Position numbers and translations under genes: made by a program. Below the pieces are notes generated by a model, which worked only from the letters and a program-made list of their open reading frames with translations, was not told where the DNA came from and ran no database searches. This document shows positions 5,118 to 34,555 of a stretch of 64,000 bases of DNA, in pieces. Each line of letters opens with the position of its first letter. The first letter of the stretch is position 1. Source of the stretch: Thermocrinis sp. (lineage in GTDB: Bacteria > Aquificota > Aquificia > Aquificales > Aquificaceae); assembly GCA_020833645.1 (NCBI GenBank), contig JAJHRQ010000001.1:1-64000 (forward strand). The letters run 5' to 3'.

Positions 5118-5354
5118 CTAAACCTCATAGATCATATCCAAAAGCTCCTTTGCCTTGGTTTGGTCTATCTCCTTTAGCTTTTTGTATATCTCCCTTGCTT
5201 TGTCTGTTTGCTTGACCCTCACATAGCAGACGCCCAGTTTGAACAAAAGCTCAGGATCTTCTCCTTTTTCTTGGATCTCTTTTTTTAGGTCTTCAATGTA
5301 TTTTTCCAGCAACTGCTTTCCCATTTTGCTGAAGATACCTCTATAGTTTTTCAT
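5118..5354 (-). CDS. Small TPR-like protein
   Basis: 78 aa. From residue 12 it reads MGKQLLEKYIEDLKKEI, then a TPR-like helix pair DPELLFKLGVCYVRVKQTDKAREIYKKL. There is no signal peptide or membrane segment. Its start overlaps the previous stop in an ATGA arrangement and it ends 3 bp before the O-antigen ligase, so it belongs to the envelope operon, perhaps as a scaffold. An internal ATG 11 codons downstream is an alternative start. Confidence 0.6.
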   Translation of the reverse strand: MKNYRGIFSKMGKQLLEKYIEDLKKEIQEKGEDPELLFKLGVCYVRVKQTDKAREIYKKLKEIDQTKAKELLDMIYEV

Positions 5355-5860
5355 GGCGTATCTCCGTAAAATTTGTAGCTCAAGTCATTGATCCGTTCTA
5401 AGTTGGAGAGCAAAAGGTCCTCCAAGTAGGGGCTGTAAGATATTAAAACTACACTCAAGCCAAAGCCTTCCTCTTCTAAGGTCTTCCTTGCGGAGTTGAG
5501 AAATTCCCTTAGGATTTCGTCCTGTTCCAATTCAAAGGGTGCGCCCAAAAAGTGATGGCTTATACCCAAATAGCTGCCGGGATTTACCCTAACGGTTAGA
5601 CGCAAAGGGTTTAGGGCTTCTACGAGTTTGGCTTTGGAGTTGGCGTAGTCTAGCCCAAACATGAGCATAGCATCGGTAATTAGATACTTTGAACTCAAAG
5701 ACACAAACTGTCTAAAACCGCTTTCCTTGAAGTCAAGTTTTAGGTTGTCCTTTTGGGTTTCTATCCAGTGGGGATGTGGGCTATCCACAAGCCATAGAAT
5801 TTTCTCCGGAGAAAACCCTTCCCTCTCCTGCCTGCCCCACATCATACACGCAAGGACCAT
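5351..5860 (-). CDS. Hypothetical protein, first gene of the envelope operon
   Basis: 169 aa, family not recognised. It contains LVDSPHPHWIE near residue 25, a hydrophobic FRQFVSLSSKYLITDAMLMFGLD segment and a C-terminal helix-rich part. There is no obvious signal peptide. It starts divergently from the glcD-like gene with only 20 bp between the two start codons, and overlaps the TPR-like gene by 4 bp. Position suggests it leads the polysaccharide transcript. No function is proposed. Confidence 0.6.
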   Translation of the reverse strand: MVLACMMWGRQEREGFSPEKILWLVDSPHPHWIETQKDNLKLDFKESGFRQFVSLSSKYLITDAMLMFGLDYANSKAKLVEALNPLRLTVRVNPGSYLGISHHFLGAPFELEQDEILREFLNSARKTLEEEGFGLSVVLISYSPYLEDLLLSNLERINDLSYKFYGDTP

Positions 5861-5880
5861 TAGGGAGTAAAATTTAACCC
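5861..5880. promoter_or_regulatory. Compact divergent promoter (hypothetical gene / glcD)
   Basis: Only 20 bp separate two start codons. On the plus strand TAAAAT (5868-5873) lies 7 bp before the glcD ATG; on the minus strand TAAATT (complement of 5871-5876) lies 10 bp before the other ATG. Neither gene has a Shine-Dalgarno sequence. This fits (nearly) leaderless mRNAs from overlapping promoters. Confidence 0.5.
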
Positions 5881-7275
5881 ATGTTTGGTTTGTTGAGTAA
5901 AAAACCGGTGGATAAGCTGATAGAGGTGCTTGGAAGGGAAAAGGTCTCCACTTCGTTGGTGGAGAGAAAGCTCTACTCTTACGATGCTACGCCTATACCT
6001 ATAGAAAGGGCTTTGCCCTCCGCGGTGGTCTTTCCTACCTCTCAGGAGGATGTGCAGAAGTTGGTAAAGGTGTGCTACGAGGAGGAGATCCCTATATTTC
6101 CCAGGGGTGCGGGCTCTGGTTTGACGGGTGGGGCAGTACCTACTTTGGAAAAGGGTGTGGTGGTCTCCTTTGAGAGAATGAACCGCTTTCAGATAGACGT
6201 GGATAATGCTACCGCAGTGGTGGAGCCGGGCGTTATAACCTACGAGTTTCAGCAGGAGGTGGAAAGGTTTGGTCTGTTTTATCCACCGGACCCATCTTCC
6301 TTTAAGTATTCCACCATAGGGGGCAACATTGCGGAGAACGCAGGGGGTCCAAGGTGTCTAAAGTACGGCGTTACAAGGGAGTATGTCTTGGGCTTGACCG
6401 CAGTTATAAAAGAGGGAGAGGTTATAAAAACGGGCAACCCAGTTATTAAGGATGTGGCGGGGTATGATATAACCAAGCTTTTTGTAGGGTCGGAGGGAAC
6501 CCTTGGGCTTATAACCTCCGCAGTGCTAAAGCTCATACCAAAGCCAAAGGCAAGGGGGACCGCACTGATCCTTTTTAATAACTTGGAGGATGTGGGAAGG
6601 GTGGTAACGAAGATCATGACCTCGGGTATATTCCCATCTGCCTTGGAGTTTATGGACAGGGATGCCATAAGGGCGGTGGAGGAGTTTAAACCCGTTGGTT
6701 TGCCAAAGGATGTTTCTGCGTTGCTTTTGGTGGAGGTGGATGGCTCTCCTCAGAGCGTTAAAGAGGACATAAAGGCGGTGGAAGAGCTGGCAAAGGCTAT
6801 GGGCTTGGAGGTAAAGGTGGCAGAGGACGAGGAGTCCGCGGAAAAACTCTGGACCGCCAGAAAGAGTTTGGGACCCGCCTTGGGGAACCTGAGAACTGGC
6901 AAGATCAACGAGGACGTGGTGGTGCCAAGGGTATATCTTTCGGAAGCCATAAGGGATTATCGGAAGGTGGCAGAAAAGTATGGGCTTTTGATGGTGATCT
7001 TTGGACATATTGGAGACGGTAATCTTCATGTAAATCTGCTCTACGATAAGAAAAACAAGGAAGAGGAAGAGAGGGCAGAAAGGGCGGTGGATGAGATCTT
7101 TGAGATCACCTTAAGGTACAACGGCTCTATTACGGGCGAGCATGGTGTGGGTTTAACAAAGAGGAAGTTTTTGGAGTATCAGTTCGGTCCCGTGGGCATG
7201 GAAATACTAAGGGGCATAAAAAAGGTCTTTGACCCGAAAAATCTATTCAACCCGGGCAAGGTTATAGCTCTATAG
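5881..7275 (+). CDS. glcD: FAD-linked oxidase, glycolate/lactate oxidase GlcD-like
   Basis: 464 aa. The FAD-binding PCMH domain occupies roughly 45-225, with PRGAGSGLTGGAVP binding the FAD pyrophosphate and GGNIAENAGGPRCLKYGVT typical of GlcD. The C-terminal FAD-oxidase domain ends with GSITGEHGVGLTKR and FDPKNLFNPGK, family hallmarks. It oxidises 2-hydroxy acids such as glycolate or D-lactate and passes electrons to a partner, usually GlcE/GlcF, neither of which is nearby. The 3' end overlaps nth convergently by 14 bp. The start has no SD but a TAAAAT box 7 bp upstream. Confidence 0.88.
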   Translation: MFGLLSKKPVDKLIEVLGREKVSTSLVERKLYSYDATPIPIERALPSAVVFPTSQEDVQKLVKVCYEEEIPIFPRGAGSGLTGGAVPTLEKGVVVSFERMNRFQIDVDNATAVVEPGVITYEFQQEVERFGLFYPPDPSSFKYSTIGGNIAENAGGPRCLKYGVTREYVLGLTAVIKEGEVIKTGNPVIKDVAGYDITKLFVGSEGTLGLITSAVLKLIPKPKARGTALILFNNLEDVGRVVTKIMTSGIFPSALEFMDRDAIRAVEEFKPVGLPKDVSALLLVEVDGSPQSVKEDIKAVEELAKAMGLEVKVAEDEESAEKLWTARKSLGPALGNLRTGKINEDVVVPRVYLSEAIRDYRKVAEKYGLLMVIFGHIGDGNLHVNLLYDKKNKEEEERAERAVDEIFEITLRYNGSITGEHGVGLTKRKFLEYQFGPVGMEILRGIKKVFDPKNLFNPGKVIAL

Positions 7276-7883: not shown

Positions 7884-8618
7884 TTATACCCTATCCACCA
7901 CCAGGCAAAACCAACCCTTCTTTGAGATGCGCCTTTTGACCTTTAGGGGATAGTTCCTTAAAAGCTTAAGTACTTCCCTCAGTTCGTCTTTTTTGTATAT
8001 GCCGGAAAGCACTGCCCTTTTTTCAAAGAGTTTTACCAGGTCCTCCATTACCTCAAAAAATATGTGGGTTTCCAAGTTTGCCACCATAAAGTCAAAGGTC
8101 TGGTTTATATCTTTGGGCTGTGCCCAATAAACCTCCAACTCCACGTGGTTTAGCTCTGCGTTGGCTTTGCACTCCTGAATAGCCTGCGGGTCTATGTCTA
8201 TGGCAACCACTTTGTTTGCACCCTTTAGCTTTAGGGCTATAGAAAGTATGCCCGACCCACAGCCCACGTCAATGGCAGACCAGCCCTCCAGAAAGAAATC
8301 CTCAATAGCCTTAAGACACATTTGGGTGGTGGGATGAAGTCCTGTGCCGAAGGCACTGCCGGGGTTTATAAAAATGGGCTTTAGCCAAGGGGGTAGAACC
8401 ACGAACTCGCCCAAAATTATGGGCTTAAAGCTCTCCTTTGGTGTTATGACTTTTATTTCCCTAACCTCAATTGGCTCAAACCCTTGCAAAGGCTCATAGA
8501 CCGCAAAGACCACATCCTCTTTCCTCTCCTCCAAAAGGCGCACACCCTTGCCATAGTCCAGCAGGAACTGGTAAAAGTCCTCCTTTCCCAACCTGTAAAT
8601 ATACTCTCTGTAGTCCAT
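7884..8618 (-). CDS. prmA: Ribosomal protein L11 methyltransferase
   Basis: About 244 aa from ATG 8618 (the track uses GTG 8627, adding three residues). Motifs are FGTGLHPTTQMCLKAIE, the PrmA-specific entry loop, then AIDVGCGSGILSIAL for SAM binding and FDFMVANLETHIFF (an N-like motif). It trimethylates ribosomal protein L11. The N-terminal substrate-recognition domain (1-90) is shorter than in E. coli, as is common in thermophiles. The gene starts divergently from a secreted-protein gene 22 bp away. Confidence 0.9.
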   Translation of the reverse strand: MDYREYIYRLGKEDFYQFLLDYGKGVRLLEERKEDVVFAVYEPLQGFEPIEVREIKVITPKESFKPIILGEFVVLPPWLKPIFINPGSAFGTGLHPTTQMCLKAIEDFFLEGWSAIDVGCGSGILSIALKLKGANKVVAIDIDPQAIQECKANAELNHVELEVYWAQPKDINQTFDFMVANLETHIFFEVMEDLVKLFEKRAVLSGIYKKDELREVLKLLRNYPLKVKRRISKKGWFCLVVDRV

Positions 8619-8640
8619 ACTTTGCACATAAAATTTTTAC
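8619..8640. promoter_or_regulatory. Compact divergent promoter (prmA / secreted protein)
   Basis: There are 22 bp between the prmA ATG (8618) and the ATG at 8641. TAAAAT (8629-8634) stands 6 bp before the plus-strand start; its complement TTTTAT can serve prmA at 10 bp. No SD is present on either side. Confidence 0.45.
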
Positions 8641-9090
8641 ATGCTTTTTTTGATTTTTCTGCTGTTGGTAAATCTTAGCTTTGCCCTCAACTGCCAAGAG
8701 CTTGGCATCAGGCTGGAAAAGGTAAAGACTTATAACATATACGATGAGTTAGTTCAGTATGCGGAGGGACTGTTGAAAAACTGCCAAGAAAACGAAAGCT
8801 ACCCTTTAGCCTTAGATTACCTGCTCAACGCACTGGAGACCATCTACCAAGAGAAGGCTAAGGCTAACTCCAAGCTGTTAAAAAAGGTGGCAGACCAACG
8901 CACAAAAAACTCACTGCTTATGCTACAAAAAACCGCCAAATACAAGAAAAAGTATCCCCTTTTGTATTCATACCAACAGCTTTTTCATGTGGTGGCTATG
9001 GAAAACAGAAGGGTAGGAGACTATGAATACGCCCTAAAGTATGCCTACGCATCCACGCAGATAGGCAAAGCCATCCTCCAGCTTAAATAG
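8641..9090 (+). CDS. Secreted hypothetical protein, helical
   Basis: 149 aa. The first 16 residues (MLFLIFLLLVNLSFAL) form a clear signal peptide with cleavage near SFA-L. The mature part is helical, contains two Cys (CQEL, NCQEN) and a tail YEYALKYAYASTQIGKAI that resembles a TPR-like helix pair. No family is recognised. It ends in an 8-bp convergent overlap with the DUF429 gene. A TAAAAT box 6 bp upstream suggests a leaderless transcript. Confidence 0.65.
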   Translation: MLFLIFLLLVNLSFALNCQELGIRLEKVKTYNIYDELVQYAEGLLKNCQENESYPLALDYLLNALETIYQEKAKANSKLLKKVADQRTKNSLLMLQKTAKYKKKYPLLYSYQQLFHVVAMENRRVGDYEYALKYAYASTQIGKAILQLK

Positions 9091-24979: not shown

Positions 24980-25003
24980 AAATAATAGAATCAAACTAAC
25001 CCC

Positions 25004-25384
25004 TTACTCCCCCTGCTTGTGAGGAACCTCTAAAACCTTGTAGAGAAGGAGCCTGATTTCTTTGATCTCTTCCTTCAGACCGCTAATCTCTCCTCTTAAC
25101 TCACCAAGCTTTCCATCCACATCACCCCTTAACTCACTAAATCTTCTATCCATATCACTCTTTAACTCACCGAGTCTTCTGTATACATCCTCAAACTTTG
25201 TATCCATATCATTCCTCAACTCACCAAGCCTTTTATCCATATTATCCCTAAAGTCATCAATTCTCTTATCCACCGTATCAATTCTCTTATTTATCTGTTG
25301 AACAAGCATTCCCATAACCCATATAAAGATAGCCAATATCCCAACAAGCCCGCTAAGTATTGCAATGTAATCCCTGAATTCCAC
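25004..25384 (-). CDS. Membrane-anchored coiled-coil protein, tandem paralogue A
   Basis: 126 aa with a GTG start. One N-terminal transmembrane helix (YIAILSGLVGILAIFIWVMG) is followed by a long charged coiled coil of heptad/hendecad repeats such as KRIDTVDKRIDDF and the ending LLLYKVLEVPHKQGE. It is one of four adjacent paralogues with the same head and tail but different middle lengths. TATAAT (complement of 25392-25397) lies exactly 7 bp before the start, with no SD. Function unknown. Confidence 0.65.
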   Translation of the reverse strand: MEFRDYIAILSGLVGILAIFIWVMGMLVQQINKRIDTVDKRIDDFRDNMDKRLGELRNDMDTKFEDVYRRLGELKSDMDRRFSELRGDVDGKLGELRGEISGLKEEIKEIRLLLYKVLEVPHKQGE

Positions 25385-25459
25385 AAGGATAATTATAGGC
25401 GAAAGTTTTAAAAACGATAGCCCTGCCCCGCCATTTTGTGAAGGGATAAAACTAACCCC

Positions 25460-25741
25460 TTACTCCCCCTGCTTGTGAGGAACTTCCAAAACCTTGTAAA
25501 GAAGAAGCCTGATTTCTTTAATCTCTTCCCTCAAATCCTTAATGTACTCTTTCAATTCATTAAACCTTCTATCCATATCTTCTCTCAGTTCACCAATTCT
25601 CTTTTCCACTGAATCAATTCTTTTTTCCACCGTATCAGTTCTTTTGTTTATCTGTTGAACAAGCATCCACATAATCCCCGTAAAGGTAGCCAATATCCCA
25701 ATAAGCCCACCAAGTATCGCAACGTAATCCCTGAACTCCAC
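25460..25741 (-). CDS. Membrane-anchored coiled-coil protein, tandem paralogue B
   Basis: 93 aa with a GTG start. The head EFRDYVAILGGLIGILATF is nearly identical to paralogues C and D, then KRTDTVEKRIDSVEKRIGEL and the shared tail. It lacks about 33 residues of coil present in A. The upstream region repeats that of A, with TATAAT (complement of 25749-25754) 7 bp from the start. Intergenic sequence between copies is also conserved, so whole gene units have been duplicated. Confidence 0.65.
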   Translation of the reverse strand: MEFRDYVAILGGLIGILATFTGIMWMLVQQINKRTDTVEKRIDSVEKRIGELREDMDRRFNELKEYIKDLREEIKEIRLLLYKVLEVPHKQGE

Positions 25742-25816
25742 AAGGATAATTATAGGTAAAAGTTTTAAAAAGAATAGTCCTATCCTGTCATTTTGTGAAG
25801 ATATGAAAACAAACCC

Positions 25817-26176
25817 TTACTCCCTTTGCTTGTGAGGAAGTTTTATAACACTTACCCTGTAAAGCTTTCGCTTGTGAGGGACTTCTAAAGCCATGTAGTC
25901 CTTGAATTCTCTGATTTCTTCTTTTAACTCACTAAACTTTTTATTCACATCTTCCTTCAAGCCATCAACTCTCCTGCTTATCTCTTTGACTTCTTCTCTC
26001 AAACCCTTAATCTCCTCTCTCTGTTCGTCAATTCTCTTTTCCACTGAATCAATTCCTTTTTCCACCGTATCAATTCTCTTATTTATCTGCTGAACAAACA
26101 TCCACATAATCCCTGTAAAGGTAGCCAATATCCCAATAAGCCCGCTAAGCATTGCAACGTAATCCCTGAACTCCAT
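25817..26176 (-). CDS. Membrane-anchored coiled-coil protein, tandem paralogue C
   Basis: 119 aa from ATG 26176; the track begins six codons upstream inside the promoter. Same membrane helix and EKRID repeats, but the middle has its own sequence (REEVKEISRRVDGLKEDV) and the tail is duplicated: VPHKRKLYRVSVI then LPHKQRE, which looks like an in-frame repeat of the end. TATAAT (complement of 26184-26189) lies 7 bp upstream. Confidence 0.62.
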   Translation of the reverse strand: MEFRDYVAMLSGLIGILATFTGIMWMFVQQINKRIDTVEKGIDSVEKRIDEQREEIKGLREEVKEISRRVDGLKEDVNKKFSELKEEIREFKDYMALEVPHKRKLYRVSVIKLPHKQRE

Positions 26177-26251
26177 AAGGATAATTATAGGCAAAAGTTT
26201 TAAAAACTATAGCCCTGTCCTGCCATTTTGTGAAGATATAAAAATAAACCC

Positions 26252-26491
26252 TTATTCCCTTTGCTTGTGAGGAACCTCTAAAACTTTGTAGAGAAGAAGC
26301 TTGATTTCTTTAATTTCCTCTCTCAATTCACCAAACCTTCTATCCATATCTTCTCTGAGTTCATCAATTCTCTTATCCACCGTATCAATTCTTTTGTTTA
26401 TCTGTTGAACAAGCATCCACATAATCCCCGTAAAGGTAGCCAATATCCCAATAAGCCCACCAAGTATCGCAACGTAATCCCTGAACTCCAC
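26252..26491 (-). CDS. Membrane-anchored coiled-coil protein, tandem paralogue D
   Basis: 79 aa from GTG 26491, the shortest copy. Head and tail match the other paralogues; only about three coil repeats remain between. The track start (26509) lies within the TATAAT box (complement of 26499-26504), so the GTG 7 bp downstream is preferred. It is the first copy in transcription order. Confidence 0.62.
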   Translation of the reverse strand: MEFRDYVAILGGLIGILATFTGIMWMLVQQINKRIDTVDKRIDELREDMDRRFGELREEIKEIKLLLYKVLEVPHKQRE

Positions 26492-26569
26492 AAGGATAAT
26501 TATAAGCAAAGGTAAGCAAAGGTTTAAAAAATAGTAGCCTTATTTGAGTGATGATATATTTTTAAAACT

Positions 26570-26965
26570 ATGCCAAAGGCAATAGACCTTGAACTTTTGC
26601 AACTCCTTGAGGACAAGCTTGGGAAAGGGGAGGCGAGAAAAGTAGCACAGGCAATAGAATTAGGACTTGAGATTATGGAAAAGAGGGCAGAAGAGCTTGC
26701 CATCCAGAAAAAGCTTGAGCTTAAAGATGAGCTTACCAAAGAGTTGGCAAGCAAGGCGGACATTCAAGTCTTAAAGGCAGAAATCCAGGCAGTTAGGGCA
26801 GAAGTACAAGCAATGGAAGCAAGGCTTGAAGCCAAAATTGAAAAAGAGATCCTGAGGCTTGACCGTAAATTTACCATACTGTTTATCATTCTCTCTTTTA
26901 CCCTGATACTCGTTAATCAAAACGCCCTTGAGTTTTTGTTGAAAGTTTTAAGAGTGATAAAGTGA
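26570..26965 (+). CDS. DUF1640-like coiled-coil protein with C-terminal membrane helix
   Basis: 131 aa. A charged N-terminus (LLQLLEDKLGKGEARKVAQAIE) leads to a coiled coil (KADIQVLKAEIQAVRAEVQAME) and a final transmembrane segment (FTILFIILSFTLILVNQ). This layout matches small DUF1640/CCDC90-like proteins of thermophilic bacteria, which often accompany mobile or defence genes. It is divergent from the coil array. No SD; TATATT stands about 9 bp upstream of the ATG. Confidence 0.6.
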   Translation: MPKAIDLELLQLLEDKLGKGEARKVAQAIELGLEIMEKRAEELAIQKKLELKDELTKELASKADIQVLKAEIQAVRAEVQAMEARLEAKIEKEILRLDRKFTILFIILSFTLILVNQNALEFLLKVLRVIK

Positions 26966-27075
26966 TATATTTTTAAAGCCATGGCAAGGGCAATAGACCT
27001 TGAACTTTTGCAACTCTTTTAGAACAGGCTTGGAAAAGAAAGGACATAAGATTATGGAAAAAAGGGCGGAAGTTC
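26962..27075 (+). pseudogene. Broken duplicate of the DUF1640-like gene start
   Basis: The sequence GTGATATATTTTTAAA, the following ATG (26981) and the first codons repeat the start of the intact gene 410 bp upstream almost exactly (MARAIDLELLQL against MPKAIDLELLQL). It then hits a TAG after 14 codons, skips an internal stretch and resumes with ATTATGGAAAA...GGGCGGAAG before homology stops. It is a truncated copy, and its downstream end lies against the remains of hepT. Confidence 0.7.
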
Positions 27076-28209: not shown

Positions 28210-28959
28210 ATGATTTACATTCTCCTCTTTCTGCTTGGTGCGGTGCTTGGTTCCTTTTATAACGTGCTCATATACAGAATCCCTCGTGGTATGTCCATTG
28301 TTAATCCACCTTCCCACTGTCCAAGCTGTAAAACACCCATAAAGTGGTATAACAACATCCCAATAATTTCCTACGTCCTCTTGAGGGGAAAGTGTCCAAA
28401 CTGCTCTGCCAAAATATCCATCAGATACCCTCTTGTGGAGGCTTTTAGCGGTTTTCTGGCGGTTCTCTCCTATTACAAGTGGGGCTTTAGTATTACCGCC
28501 CTTGGGCTTTATGTATTCTTTTCCCTACTGCTGGTACTTAGCCTGATAGATTGGGATACCTTTAGCCTACCGGAGCCGTTGATGTTGGGTGGAACAGTCC
28601 TTGGTGTGATTACCTCCGTCTTTAGGGAGGACTTTAGCCTCTATGAGAGCCTTTTGGGAATATTGGCGGGTGCTTTGCCCTTTTTGCTTATATACCTTTA
28701 CTACAAAAAAGTCAGAAAGTTTGAGGGGCTTGGGTTTGGAGATGTGGAGCTTATGGCTCTCATAGGTAGTTGGACGGGCATATGGGGTGTGATTAGTGCG
28801 GTCTTTTTGGGCTCCCTCTTTGGGCTCCTTTATGTGCTTCCTATACTGATAAAACATAAAAGCGTGAACTTTGCTATTCCCTTTGGTCCCTTTCTTGCCC
28901 TTGGCTGTTTTGTTGGAGTTGTTTTTGATGGCTGGCGATTTTATCTAACAGGCTTTTGA
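28210..28959 (+). CDS. pilD: Type IV prepilin peptidase (A24), leader peptidase/methylase
   Basis: 249 aa, polytopic. The N-terminal methylase domain has two CxxC zinc pairs (CPSC, CPNC) around PIKWYNNIPIISY. The two catalytic aspartates sit in SLIDWDTFSLPEP and the GFGDVELMA (GxGD) motif. It cleaves the leader of the pilins encoded at 39.3-42.7 kb after Gly and methylates the new N-terminus. Its 3' end overlaps the convergent HepT-like gene by 86 bp. TAAAAT lies 6 bp before the ATG and there is no SD. Confidence 0.93.
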   Translation: MIYILLFLLGAVLGSFYNVLIYRIPRGMSIVNPPSHCPSCKTPIKWYNNIPIISYVLLRGKCPNCSAKISIRYPLVEAFSGFLAVLSYYKWGFSITALGLYVFFSLLLVLSLIDWDTFSLPEPLMLGGTVLGVITSVFREDFSLYESLLGILAGALPFLLIYLYYKKVRKFEGLGFGDVELMALIGSWTGIWGVISAVFLGSLFGLLYVLPILIKHKSVNFAIPFGPFLALGCFVGVVFDGWRFYLTGF

Positions 28960-29791
28960 GAGAAGAGGATATTTCCTTTAGCACTGGTTCAAAATAGTCT
29001 TTGAGTTCCATTAACTCTCTGTATAGGCTTTCCAAATCTATCTCCCAAGTGCTTATAAGCTTGTTTTTTAGGTTCATCATCTTAAGCAGAACTGGGTAAT
29101 ACTGAGGAGAGATTATACCGCCTTCCACCATCTTTAAAAGGCAATCATCACCGAATTTTTTTATGCCAAACTTTGGTGCAAGGTGTTTGCAAATGTCAAA
29201 GAGGGAATCGTAAGCCACCTGATAAAAGTATTTGACCCTGTCGTGATACATGGGCTTTTTTTTGAACTCTTCCAAGCCCACCGATAGGACGAAGTTTATT
29301 TTATTTACAGAATCCTTAACAAACTTTGCCTTTTCCTTTAGAAGTTCAAAGTCTATGAGAAGATAATTACCGGTAGTTTGTTTAACATACTCTACCACCG
29401 CCCTTGCATAATCCTTAAAAACATGTAGGTTCTTTTCCAAGAAATCGTACAGTTCCTCCGGCTGGACTGCCTCCTTTAGGTCCCTGTATTTAAAGTAAAA
29501 ATCTGTAAAGGCTTGGAGGGTTTCAAGGTCCTCGTAGCCCACCCTCTCTCCAAGTTTTACCAAACAATCCTTTGAAGAGGTCTTTAGACCAAGAACTACT
29601 GAGAGATGCCTACAGGGTCTCATACAGCTTTCAAAGGCTAAGTTGAAATCTACCCTAACCTTATCCTGGATAAGTTTGTTCTTAACAAACTCTTCCTTGC
29701 CTAAAGAGAGAAGCTTTTTTAGGTTTGCGTAAGCCTTCTCTAAATTGTGGAAGCTTTCCAAAAGGAGGCTTATGTTTATCTTTTTTTCCAT
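28874..29791 (-). CDS. Tandem HepT-like (DUF86/HEPN) protein lacking catalytic residues
   Basis: 305 aa, built of two copies of a HepT-like domain. Copy 1 (about 15-150) has DFNLAFESCMRPCRHLSVVLGL; copy 2 (about 165-300) has RVKYFYQVAYDSLFDICKHLAPKFG and IDLESLYREL, closely following the DUF86 pattern. In active HepT the segment before the last helix reads R-N-x3-H; here it is KNKLIST in copy 2 and similarly lost in copy 1. So it is probably not an RNase but a structural or regulatory derivative. No nucleotidyltransferase partner lies beside it. Confidence 0.65.
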   Translation of the reverse strand: MEKKINISLLLESFHNLEKAYANLKKLLSLGKEEFVKNKLIQDKVRVDFNLAFESCMRPCRHLSVVLGLKTSSKDCLVKLGERVGYEDLETLQAFTDFYFKYRDLKEAVQPEELYDFLEKNLHVFKDYARAVVEYVKQTTGNYLLIDFELLKEKAKFVKDSVNKINFVLSVGLEEFKKKPMYHDRVKYFYQVAYDSLFDICKHLAPKFGIKKFGDDCLLKMVEGGIISPQYYPVLLKMMNLKNKLISTWEIDLESLYRELMELKDYFEPVLKEISSSLKSLLDKIASHQKQLQQNSQGQERDQRE

Positions 29792-29812
29792 CAAGGATAT
29801 AATATTAGCATT
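29792..29812. promoter_or_regulatory. Compact divergent promoter with overlapping -10 boxes
   Basis: There are 21 bp between ATG 29791 (minus) and GTG 29813 (plus). TATAAT (29798-29803) is 9 bp before the GTG; TATTAT (complement of 29799-29804) is 7 bp before the ATG. The two boxes overlap almost completely, so only one polymerase could use the site at a time. Confidence 0.5.
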
Positions 29813-30667
29813 GTGTGGCTAAACAAGGTGTTTTTAATCACCTTTTTAAGGTTTTTGCTTTTTCTGTTTTTTATGCTCCATGCCCTCCTCTACCTTCCGG
29901 GATACGCCCAAAAGGCGGTGGTAGTGGTTATATCTTCCCTTTATCTTTCTACTGCCCTGGTGAATTATTTTTACTCTTTCAAGCTTAGAAGGCTAAACGA
30001 TTACATAGACTTTTTCTTCCTCATACCTTCGGCTTTACTTTTGGAAGAACCCTTGGCTATTTTTTCCCTTTTGGTGCCTTCCCTCTTTAGCTTTCCCAAA
30101 AATCTTGTGCCCTTTTTTATATCTGTTCTTTCTGCCACTGCCCTTAGCGTTTATAACTTTGGCTTGAAGGGACTTTTGGTTTTTCCTTTAACTTTGGCGT
30201 TGGGGATCTCTCCCTCCTCTGTGGAGTTGCTTAGGAGCCTTCAAAAGGATAGAAGGTATTTTCTGGAACTGAGGAGGGCATACAGAAGCATCCAGAAGGA
30301 ACTTTCAACCCTTGAAAGGGAAAAAAGGCAGAAGGAAACGCTACTTAAACTATTAGAGTTGCTTGACAGTAATGGACCGGAGGAATATCTTAAGGGTGTG
30401 AAGGAGATGTTCAAGCTTAAAGCTATAAAAGTTTTTTCTTTGAAGGACGGTTCTGTAAAAGAGTGCCTCATAGACGAAGGCAGTTTGACCATCTCTGTGC
30501 CAGTGGGCTTAGAAGAGGGCAGTGCCTTGGTTGTTTTCTACCTTAACCATCCTGCAGAACTTATGGATGCGGAGCTAAAGGAGAATTTAAGTAGATGTGC
30601 CAAGATGTTAAAGCTTTATATAGCAGGCTTTGAAGACAAAGAACAGGCAGTAAAGATCGCAGTGTGA
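29813..30667 (+). CDS. Membrane protein with cytoplasmic GAF-like domain
   Basis: 284 aa from GTG 29813; the track start lies inside the divergent gene. About five hydrophobic helices span residues 1-135. A coiled coil (RRYFLELRRAYRSIQKELSTLERE) links to a C-terminal alpha/beta region with alternating strands (IKVFSLKDGSVKECLIDEG, LTISVPVGLEEGSALVVFYL) that resembles a GAF sensor domain. It may sense a signal for the tusA-DUF3343-trpC genes that follow, but no output domain is visible. Confidence 0.55.
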   Translation: MWLNKVFLITFLRFLLFLFFMLHALLYLPGYAQKAVVVVISSLYLSTALVNYFYSFKLRRLNDYIDFFFLIPSALLLEEPLAIFSLLVPSLFSFPKNLVPFFISVLSATALSVYNFGLKGLLVFPLTLALGISPSSVELLRSLQKDRRYFLELRRAYRSIQKELSTLEREKRQKETLLKLLELLDSNGPEEYLKGVKEMFKLKAIKVFSLKDGSVKECLIDEGSLTISVPVGLEEGSALVVFYLNHPAELMDAELKENLSRCAKMLKLYIAGFEDKEQAVKIAV

Positions 30668-32763: not shown

Positions 32764-33338
32764 GTCAGCAGGGCAAAGAGGATCATTCTTTGAGAGGTTT
32801 TGTCCCTTCGGTGGGAGGGAAACTTTTCATTACATATGGTGCATTCGCGGTAAACAAAGAGCCTTTTTAGTCCGTAGTCCTTTAGCCTTTTTAGGACCTC
32901 CAGTTGGGTGTCCATGTAGAACTTTCCATTCTTGTAGTGCAGTATTCTAAAGTACTCTTTGAATTCCTTACCTACCTCATAACAGCAAGCTTTAGCGGAA
33001 GGTCCCACAAAAACAAAGGGTTCCTTCTCAATGGGCAAGAACCTTTCTAAAAATCTCTCCACAATGCCCGCCTTTATGCCCCTCCAACCCGCATGCACCA
33101 CACCCACCGCCCTCTCCCCCAAAAAGGCCAAGGGCACACAGTCTGCGGTCCTCACACCTATAGGAAAATTCTTTCTCGTGGTTATAATGGCATCTCCCTC
33201 CTCTTGTATTTCTTCATCCAAGAGGACCACCCTGTCCGAATGAATTTGCCTAAGTGTGAATATGCCATCCCTTGGGTCGTAGAGTTTTAGCCCTACCAAG
33301 GCATTCTTGAACCTAAAGCTTAGCCAAGCTGTTTGCAT
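32760..33338 (-). CDS. pgeF: Multicopper/zinc purine-nucleoside processing protein (YfiH/PgeF, laccase-domain)
   Basis: 192 aa from ATG 33338; the track ORF runs 38 codons further into proC in the wrong frame. LRQIHSDRV, VRTADCVPLAFLG, VHAGWRG and CCYEVGKEF supply the His/Cys zinc site of the DUF152/YfiH family. Members have been reported as purine nucleoside phosphorylases and as peptidoglycan-editing factors. It overlaps proC by 19 bp and birA by 4 bp. Confidence 0.85.
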   Translation of the reverse strand: MQTAWLSFRFKNALVGLKLYDPRDGIFTLRQIHSDRVVLLDEEIQEEGDAIITTRKNFPIGVRTADCVPLAFLGERAVGVVHAGWRGIKAGIVERFLERFLPIEKEPFVFVGPSAKACCYEVGKEFKEYFRILHYKNGKFYMDTQLEVLKRLKDYGLKRLFVYRECTICNEKFPSHRRDKTSQRMILFALLT

Positions 33339-34093
33339 CTGTTGGTGGTTTCCCTTATGCATTCCATTAAGATCCCTGAGAAAGCCTTTTCTTCCAAAAC
33401 CTTTATGCCCTCTATGGTGGTGCCAGAGGGAGAGGCCACCTTGCTGATCCACTCCTCCGGATGCCCTCCAAAGGTCCTAAGCATAAGGACTGTTCCCTCT
33501 ATGGTGTCCAAGACTACGTCCATTGCCTGTTGGTAGCTAAAGCCCTCTCTGACTCCCGCCAAGCAGAGGGCAGATATAAACTTCATCACAAAGGCAGGAC
33601 CAGAACCCGCCAGGGCGGTAAAGGCATCCATCAAGCCCTCTTCCACCTTGTGCAAACTTCCACACTTAGAAAAGCTCTCCTTGAAATTCTCTTCATCCCT
33701 TTCTTCCACAAGCTCGTTGCACACATAGGCGATGGCACCTTTACCCACCGCTACAGCCAAGTTGGGCATGCATCTTATGACCTTTTCCCTTCCCAAAAGC
33801 TCCTCAATCTTTTTTAGAGATAGCCCTGCCACAATGCTAACTAGGATCTTTCCCTCCATCTTCCCCCTTAGGTTTTCAAGGACCTTTCCCGCATCTTTGG
33901 GTTTAACCGCAAGCAGTAAAAGGTCCGAGTTTGCCACCAAAAATTCCAAGTCCTTTGCCCATCCTATTCCCATCTCCAAAGCCTTCTCTTTTTTGCTTGC
34001 GTCCGTGTCAAAGGCTACCACCTCTGCGGACTTTTTTAATCCCTCTCCAAAGGCACTTCCCATATTTCCAAAGCCTATTATTCCAATGCGCAT
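33320..34093 (-). CDS. proC: Pyrroline-5-carboxylate reductase
   Basis: 257 aa. The N-terminal NADPH fold GIIGFGNMGSAFGEGL, the central VSIVAGLSLKKIEELL and CMPNLAVAVGKG, and the C-terminal substrate site ALAGSGPAFVMKFI with SPSGTTIEGIKVLE are diagnostic. It makes proline from pyrroline-5-carboxylate. TATAAT (complement of 34101-34106) lies 7 bp before the ATG, no SD. It leads the proC-pgeF-birA transcript. Confidence 0.93.
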   Translation of the reverse strand: MRIGIIGFGNMGSAFGEGLKKSAEVVAFDTDASKKEKALEMGIGWAKDLEFLVANSDLLLLAVKPKDAGKVLENLRGKMEGKILVSIVAGLSLKKIEELLGREKVIRCMPNLAVAVGKGAIAYVCNELVEERDEENFKESFSKCGSLHKVEEGLMDAFTALAGSGPAFVMKFISALCLAGVREGFSYQQAMDVVLDTIEGTVLMLRTFGGHPEEWISKVASPSGTTIEGIKVLEEKAFSGILMECIRETTNRCKQLG

Positions 34094-34111
34094 AGCTAAA
34101 ATTATATGGTG
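34094..34111. promoter_or_regulatory. 18-bp divergent promoter between proC and rimI
   Basis: The 18 bp between the two starts hold TAAAAT (34097-34102) for rimI, 9 bp from ATG 34112, and ATTATA (34101-34106), read as TATAAT on the minus strand, 7 bp from the proC ATG. The boxes overlap by 2 bp. Each -35 region would fall in the other gene's coding sequence. Confidence 0.55.
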
Positions 34112-34555
34112 ATGATAAAGGTAAGGGAAATGGAAAAGGAAGACCTACCGGAGGTCTTCAGAATCAACAAAGAGAACTTTACCACCGATGCGTGGACTAT
34201 GGAGGGCTTTGAAAGGGAGTTTAAGCTTCCTTACTCGGTTAGGTTTGTGGCGGAGGTGGAGGGCAAGCTTGTAGGATACTGCATCCTTTGGCTGATAGAA
34301 GACTGCGCCCACGTTATGACCTTTGCAATAGACCGGGCTTACTGGGGAAGAGGTATAGGAAAGGAGTTTTTAAGGGAAGTTTTAAACAGGCTTAAGGGCA
34401 AGGTTAAAAAGGTGCAATTGGACGTTAGAAAGTCAAACATAAGGGCTATTAGGCTCTATCAGGCTTTAAACTTTTACATCGTAGGAGAAAGGAGGCATTA
34501 TTATTCCGATGGCGAAAATGCTATTCAGATGGAGTATAGCTTTGATGGTCTTTAG
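34112..34555 (+). CDS. rimI: GNAT acetyltransferase, RimI-like
   Basis: 147 aa. FAIDRAYWGRGIGKEFLREVL is the acetyl-CoA pyrophosphate loop (R/Q-x-x-G-x-G/A), followed by VRKSNIRAIRLYQALNFYIVGERRHYY, the RimI-type C-terminus. It is expected to acetylate the N-terminal alanine of ribosomal S18 or related proteins. The third start codon of ATG-GTG-ATG is chosen because of its distance from the -10 box. Confidence 0.85.
   Translation: MIKVREMEKEDLPEVFRINKENFTTDAWTMEGFEREFKLPYSVRFVAEVEGKLVGYCILWLIEDCAHVMTFAIDRAYWGRGIGKEFLREVLNRLKGKVKKVQLDVRKSNIRAIRLYQALNFYIVGERRHYYSDGENAIQMEYSFDGL

Follow-up and report, generated by a model that had tools for sequence, protein, structure and literature searches.

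The window, i.e. the whole 64,000-nt stretch of DNA analysed here, originates from a Thermocrinis-like MAG of the Aquificaceae (1.26 Mb in 51 contigs). It holds eight divergent junctions, the four shortest of which (4/8) share one geometry, with 18-22 bp between the start codons of proC/rimI, hypothetical/glcD, HepT-like/membrane and prmA/secreted (Table 1). Among the gene names proposed in an earlier sequence-only reading, those of proC and rimI pass the equivalog cut-offs, while the glcD and prmA products are clear family members that fall below them. The gene labelled "DUF86-like" encodes a 305-aa protein, in which the label narrows to a C-terminal HepT-like domain. This HepT-like (HEPN) protein was matched in 25 out of 25 Aquificaceae genomes searched, its own genome included, and is possibly of the fused nucleotidyltransferase-HepT type; the domain profile search gave no match to a nucleotidyltransferase domain in it. 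Five genomes (G014, G015, G019, G024 and G008) carry an orthologue with one in-frame stop within the matched stretch. Additionally, a second rimI copy was detected in the MAG (G000:C26:5070-5507), 99% identical to window positions 34112-34552, which probably reflects duplication or strain variation within the bin.

Two repetitive areas were also recorded in the window. The first, at 24990-26513, is a cluster of short AT-rich ORFs on the minus strand, arranged as tandem-like copies (60-87% identical, units of 201-282 nt), whose coiled-coil-like products match DUF948 weakly. The second, at 26552-27038, contains a 76-nt repeat (88%) in which TATATT precedes an ATG by about 7-8 nt and the beginning of an ORF comes next; it is a duplicated leaderless-type gene start, of which copy two is apparently truncated.

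Table 1. Genes, spacers and -10 hexamers at the four close divergent junctions of the window.
Feature	Position	Strand	Remarks
Hypothetical protein, divergent partner of glcD	5351..5860	-	No Pfam/NCBIfam match
Hypothetical/glcD spacer TAGGGAGTAAAATTTAACCC	5861..5880	both	20 bp; starts 5860(-)/5881(+)
glcD-like FAD-linked oxidase	5881..7275	+	TIGR00387, E 2e-147, below equivalog cut-off
prmA-like methyltransferase	7884..8618	-	PF06325, E 2e-43; start ATG 8618 or GTG 8627
prmA/secreted spacer ACTTTGCACATAAAATTTTTAC	8619..8640	both	22 bp; starts 8618(-)/8641(+)
149-aa protein ("secreted" in the sequence-only reading)	8641..9090	+	No family match
305-aa protein, C-terminal HepT-like domain (PF01934)	28874..29791	-	Profile match
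HepT-like/membrane spacer CAAGGATATAATATTAGCATT	29792..29812	both	21 bp; starts ATG 29791(-)/GTG 29813(+)
284-aa protein ("membrane" in the sequence-only reading)	29813..30667	+	No family match
proC, pyrroline-5-carboxylate reductase	33320..34093	-	TIGR00112, E 7e-74, above equivalog cut-off
proC/rimI spacer AGCTAAAATTATATGGTG	34094..34111	both	18 bp; putative shared bidirectional -10 core
rimI -10 TAAAAT	34097..34102	+	First T 34097; 9 nt before ATG 34112 / 6 nt before GTG 34109
proC -10 TATAAT	34101..34106	-	First T 34106; 7 nt before proC ATG 34093; predicted leaderless
rimI, ribosomal protein S18-alanine N-acetyltransferase	34112..34555	+	TIGR01575, E 2e-31, above equivalog cut-off

The -10 hexamers of the close junctions

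The 18-22 bp separation of the divergent starts had been noted from the letters of the window and is borne out for all four pairs. At seven of the eight starts a strong -10 hexamer (scored against TATAAT) ends 6-10 nt upstream of the start codon, with its first T 12-16 nt before the start, whereas the chance of finding a comparable hexamer at -15 to -12 of a random window position is 3.7%. The accompanying claim, that the two genes of each pair share almost the same -10 sequence, stands clearly for three junctions. Specifically, both -10s of proC/rimI are strong and overlap on opposite strands, and the AGCTAAAATTATATGGTG spacer is unchanged in the other Thermocrinis genomes or contigs keeping this pair (L026-L028, L003 and L004). 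Three in-frame start choices exist for rimI, and the spacer would measure 12 or 15 bp if ATG 34106 or GTG 34109 were used. The hypothetical/glcD spacer bears equally overlapping and strong hexamers, TAAAAT on the plus strand (7 nt before the glcD ATG) and TAAATT on the minus strand (10 nt before the ATG of the hypothetical gene). At HepT-like/membrane, a strong TATTAT lies 7 nt before ATG 29791 and overlaps the plus-side -10, which is either TAATAT or TATAAT, 7 or 9 nt before GTG 29813. The claim is weakest for prmA/secreted, where the plus side has a good TAAAAT 6 nt before ATG 8641 but the best hexamer of the prmA side (TTTTAT) scores only 5.8/9; an alternative prmA start at GTG 8627 would reduce this spacer to 13 bp.

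A genome-wide count of such pairs, which had been proposed as a check, was made in a complete and near-identical relative (G002; 1,521,037 bp, proC 98% identical). Its genes were called with a simple home-made dicodon model that ignores upstream signals, start codons being taken from the coding signal only. Spacers of 10-30 bp separate 37 of the about 200 (209) divergent junctions, and the length distribution has its peak in the 15-24 bp bin, which contains 25 junctions, compared with about 8 in each 10-bp bin from 45 to 104 bp (Poisson P about 2e-6). In the raw list, 17, 19, 21 and 23 bp are the most frequent spacers below 25 bp. An 800-kb sample of an Aquifex-like genome (G009, about half of the genome) presented 33 junctions of 10-30 bp. 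Ordinary divergent promoters of E. coli also lie in a common intergenic region, but in 100 kb of annotated K-12 sequence none of the 14 divergent junctions was shorter than 30 bp and the smallest spacer was 38 bp; with so small a control, the difference from 37/209 reaches only a Fisher P of 0.13.

Hexamers of the -10 type were found on both strands in 31 of the 37 G002 spacers, compared with 6.4 +/- 2.3 in composition-preserving shuffles, and under a stricter threshold in 23, compared with 1.6 +/- 1.3. The spacers are 74% AT, which raises the number of chance -10 matches, an effect that shuffling controls and does not remove. The Aquifex sample showed the same tendency (23/33 spacers, 9.1 +/- 2.5 in shuffles). 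The two hexamers overlap in 28 of the 33 G002 junctions having a -10 on both sides. Short divergent spacers with overlapping -10s are thus frequent and non-random. The same counts bear on the idea that one direction only of each core is active, the partner being transcribed weakly or from elsewhere. Some junctions are indeed asymmetric, like the prmA side described above, but so general a presence of both hexamers, together with a second gene that has no other visible promoter or Shine-Dalgarno (SD) sequence, makes this explanation unlikely.

What the sequence-only reading missed is the key point of predicted leaderlessness, as a constant 6-8 nt separates the -10 from the start codon and SDs are absent. 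For genes of 8-40 bp divergent junctions in G002, the first T of the -10 peaks 13-14 nt before the start, and SD-like sequences are nearly absent (at most 4/96 per position, versus 215/749 operon-internal genes). The operon-internal genes follow the opposite pattern and long divergent junctions are mixed. None of the 74 sides of the Thermocrinis close junctions has an SD-like sequence, and only 1 of 66 does in the Aquifex sample. Close-junction genes carry the leaderless-type -10 signal (TANNNT/TATAAT about 10 nt before the start). With its end 6-8 nt upstream of the start codon, such a -10 would place the expected transcription start site (TSS) on that codon itself, which predicts leaderless mRNAs for these genes.

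Concerning the -35 element, the earlier suggestion that each one lies within the neighbouring coding region did not hold, for it is undetectable in the close class, although leaderless genes that stand alone in this genome do show it. In the latter, TTG occurs exactly 23 bp upstream of the first T of the -10 (17-bp spacer) in 23 of 196 genes, compared with about 4 for other positions, an enrichment that validates the -10 calls as real promoters. The close divergent genes of G002 have it in only 3 of 95 cases (Fisher P 0.016), and a cruder gene selection led to a similar result (1/63 close-pair versus 16/144 stand-alone genes, P 0.025). A search at proC/rimI found no two-hexamer promoter. The stand-alone class of the Aquifex sample gave no -35 signal either, so the absence from its close pairs is uninformative. 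We also considered a dual-coding -35, read antisense in the first codons of the neighbour, and rejected it because close pairs show no enrichment.

Pairing conservation and probable mutual exclusion of initiation

Two polymerases would be unable to occupy TSSs separated by about 18 bp, and the two initiation events of a junction very likely exclude each other. Mutually exclusive polymerase binding is established for bidirectional promoters of E. coli (PMC12825309). The sequence-only reading had gone further and seen in this exclusion a built-in either/or switch. Under such an explanation, selection would have favoured the overlap as a means for one gene, when expressed, to silence its neighbour. 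The overlap itself is real, polymerase occupancy must be mutually exclusive, and strong activation in one direction can repress the other in E. coli; without such activation, basal competition was negligible at all five promoters tested (PMC12825309). For a switch, promoter activity would have to be high enough to cause competition and the pairing would have to be worth keeping, and for this reason we regard the switch as unsupported. The partner genes have no obvious functional link, and pairings are swapped between genera, with each gene keeping its own -10.

Specifically, among close pairs with both orthologues present in G002 and the Aquifex sample, 0/9 are still adjacent, compared with 101/215 tandem pairs, although divergent junctions in general are also seldom kept (1/29) and the close ones are no different from these. 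The proC gene illustrates the exchange of partners. In the four Thermocrinis genomes that make up the window's close group (L025-L028), its partner is rimI, 18 bp away. At a distance of 20 bp, the opposite gene encodes a GltD-like oxidoreductase in G001 (TATTATAATTTTATCACGCT) and a member of the acireductone dioxygenase (ARD) family in G033 (ACCTGTTATTATATAACATT), while in four Aquifex-group genomes the gene of an RsmE-like rRNA methyltransferase lies 15 bp away (GCTATTATCTTAACT in G009). A shared-core spacer of 15-20 bp therefore occurs with four different partners. Three other genomes have the gene of ribosomal protein L28 opposite proC, with 43-52 bp in between, and elsewhere proC follows immediately after a gene on its own strand and frequently has an SD. 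For glcD, a -10-like hexamer persists near the start across much of the Aquificaceae despite the changing upstream neighbour, which in L185 is even a tRNA-like sequence. Four Thermocrinis genomes retain the hypothetical/glcD pair, as do L177 and L178 of another genus, where the spacer is 35 bp and, as judged by eye, a separate TATATT precedes each of the two starts by about 7-8 nt. From these cases, the leaderless state appears to travel with the gene, and the overlap to follow from packing. Conservation of pairing was rejected as a sign of a switch, in the case of proC as well as between Thermocrinis and Aquifex, and the switch itself is quite improbable.

Finally, it is highly improbable that the pairs are served by two ordinary promoters with TSSs inside the opposite gene and long antisense leaders, the spacer -10s being a coincidence of AT-richness, for even if single -10 matches are not rare at such a composition, the hexamers keep a constant distance to the start and are far more numerous than in shuffles, and the SD expected of leadered mRNAs is missing from all 74 Thermocrinis sides, while other genes of the genome have one.

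Proposed bidirectional cores for leaderless genes

The reading that we prefer is that each close junction is a minimal bidirectional -10 promoter serving two leaderless genes, to which we assign a probability of roughly 0.8. An AT-rich, near-symmetrical core of about 10-12 bp (e.g., TATAATTTTA / TAAAATTATA) would be read as a -10 on both strands, and RNA polymerase would bind it in either orientation without a recognisable -35. Each RNA would have its 5' end on the start codon or only a few nt away from it, leaving both mRNAs without a leader and without an SD. The 18-22 bp spacing would then follow from geometry, as two start codons each stand 6-9 nt from their own -10 and the -10s overlap, and the initiation events would be sterically exclusive. 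The arrangement would represent compaction combined with leaderless translation, re-formed with changing partners, rather than a switch tying specific genes together.

Bacterial bidirectional promoters form a class with divergent TSSs 7-25 bp apart, in which flanking -35s are not strictly required. Distances of 18 bp, and also of 10 and 23 bp, have been described (PMC12825309). The close junctions resemble these promoters (Warman, Grainger and colleagues; PMC12825309, PMC10268837) in their near-symmetrical -10 on both strands, in the TSSs expected about 18 bp apart and in the expected exclusive binding of polymerase. They differ in that the expected TSS lies at or next to the start codon, the whole intergenic region being promoter core, and in that -35 hexamers flank the five studied E. 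coli promoters, whereas none is detectable in the Thermocrinis close junctions. The leaderless prediction agrees with an in silico estimate for two of five genomes of the Aquificae, a group exemplified there by A. aeolicus, in which leaderless genes account for 20.7-32.4% of genes and carry a TATAAT-type signal (PMC3160421). The genes presented here are similar to the bacterial leaderless genes of Zheng and colleagues (2011; PMC3160421) in having a Pribnow-like TATAAT about 10 nt before the start and no SD, but here two leaderless genes would share one -10; neither "divergent" nor "bidirectional" was found in the text of that report. The literature searched, which left most subscription journals outside its scope, held no direct report of shared promoters of divergent leaderless genes. 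A dRNA-seq data set has been described for A. aeolicus (PMC4227106).

Where TSSs stand 18 bp apart, as in the classic arrangement, the base paired with the initiating A is the -18T of the opposite strand (PMC10268837). If transcription begins at the A of the ATG, start-codon As 18 bp apart (17-bp spacer) would make each ATG part of its partner's promoter as well. We tentatively raise the idea, more doubtful than the shared core itself, that start codons might double as promoter parts, the A of the ATG serving as +1 of its own RNA and, on the opposite strand, as the partner's -18T, a base that stabilises polymerase there. An ORF rearranged head-to-head to a leaderless gene could in that case be expressed at once, and such a ready two-way promoter would explain the several unrelated close partners of proC across the Aquificaceae.

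Apart from this, bidirectional cores of leaderless genes would bring together leaderless genes and bidirectional -10 promoters, each known on its own, in a single architecture that is predictable and would cover roughly a fifth of Thermocrinis divergent junctions. They would set a lower limit of about 12-22 bp for an intergenic region working for two genes, provide an annotation rule for start-codon choice in Aquificaceae, and show how leaders, -35 elements and intergenic DNA can disappear jointly from compact genomes of thermophiles.
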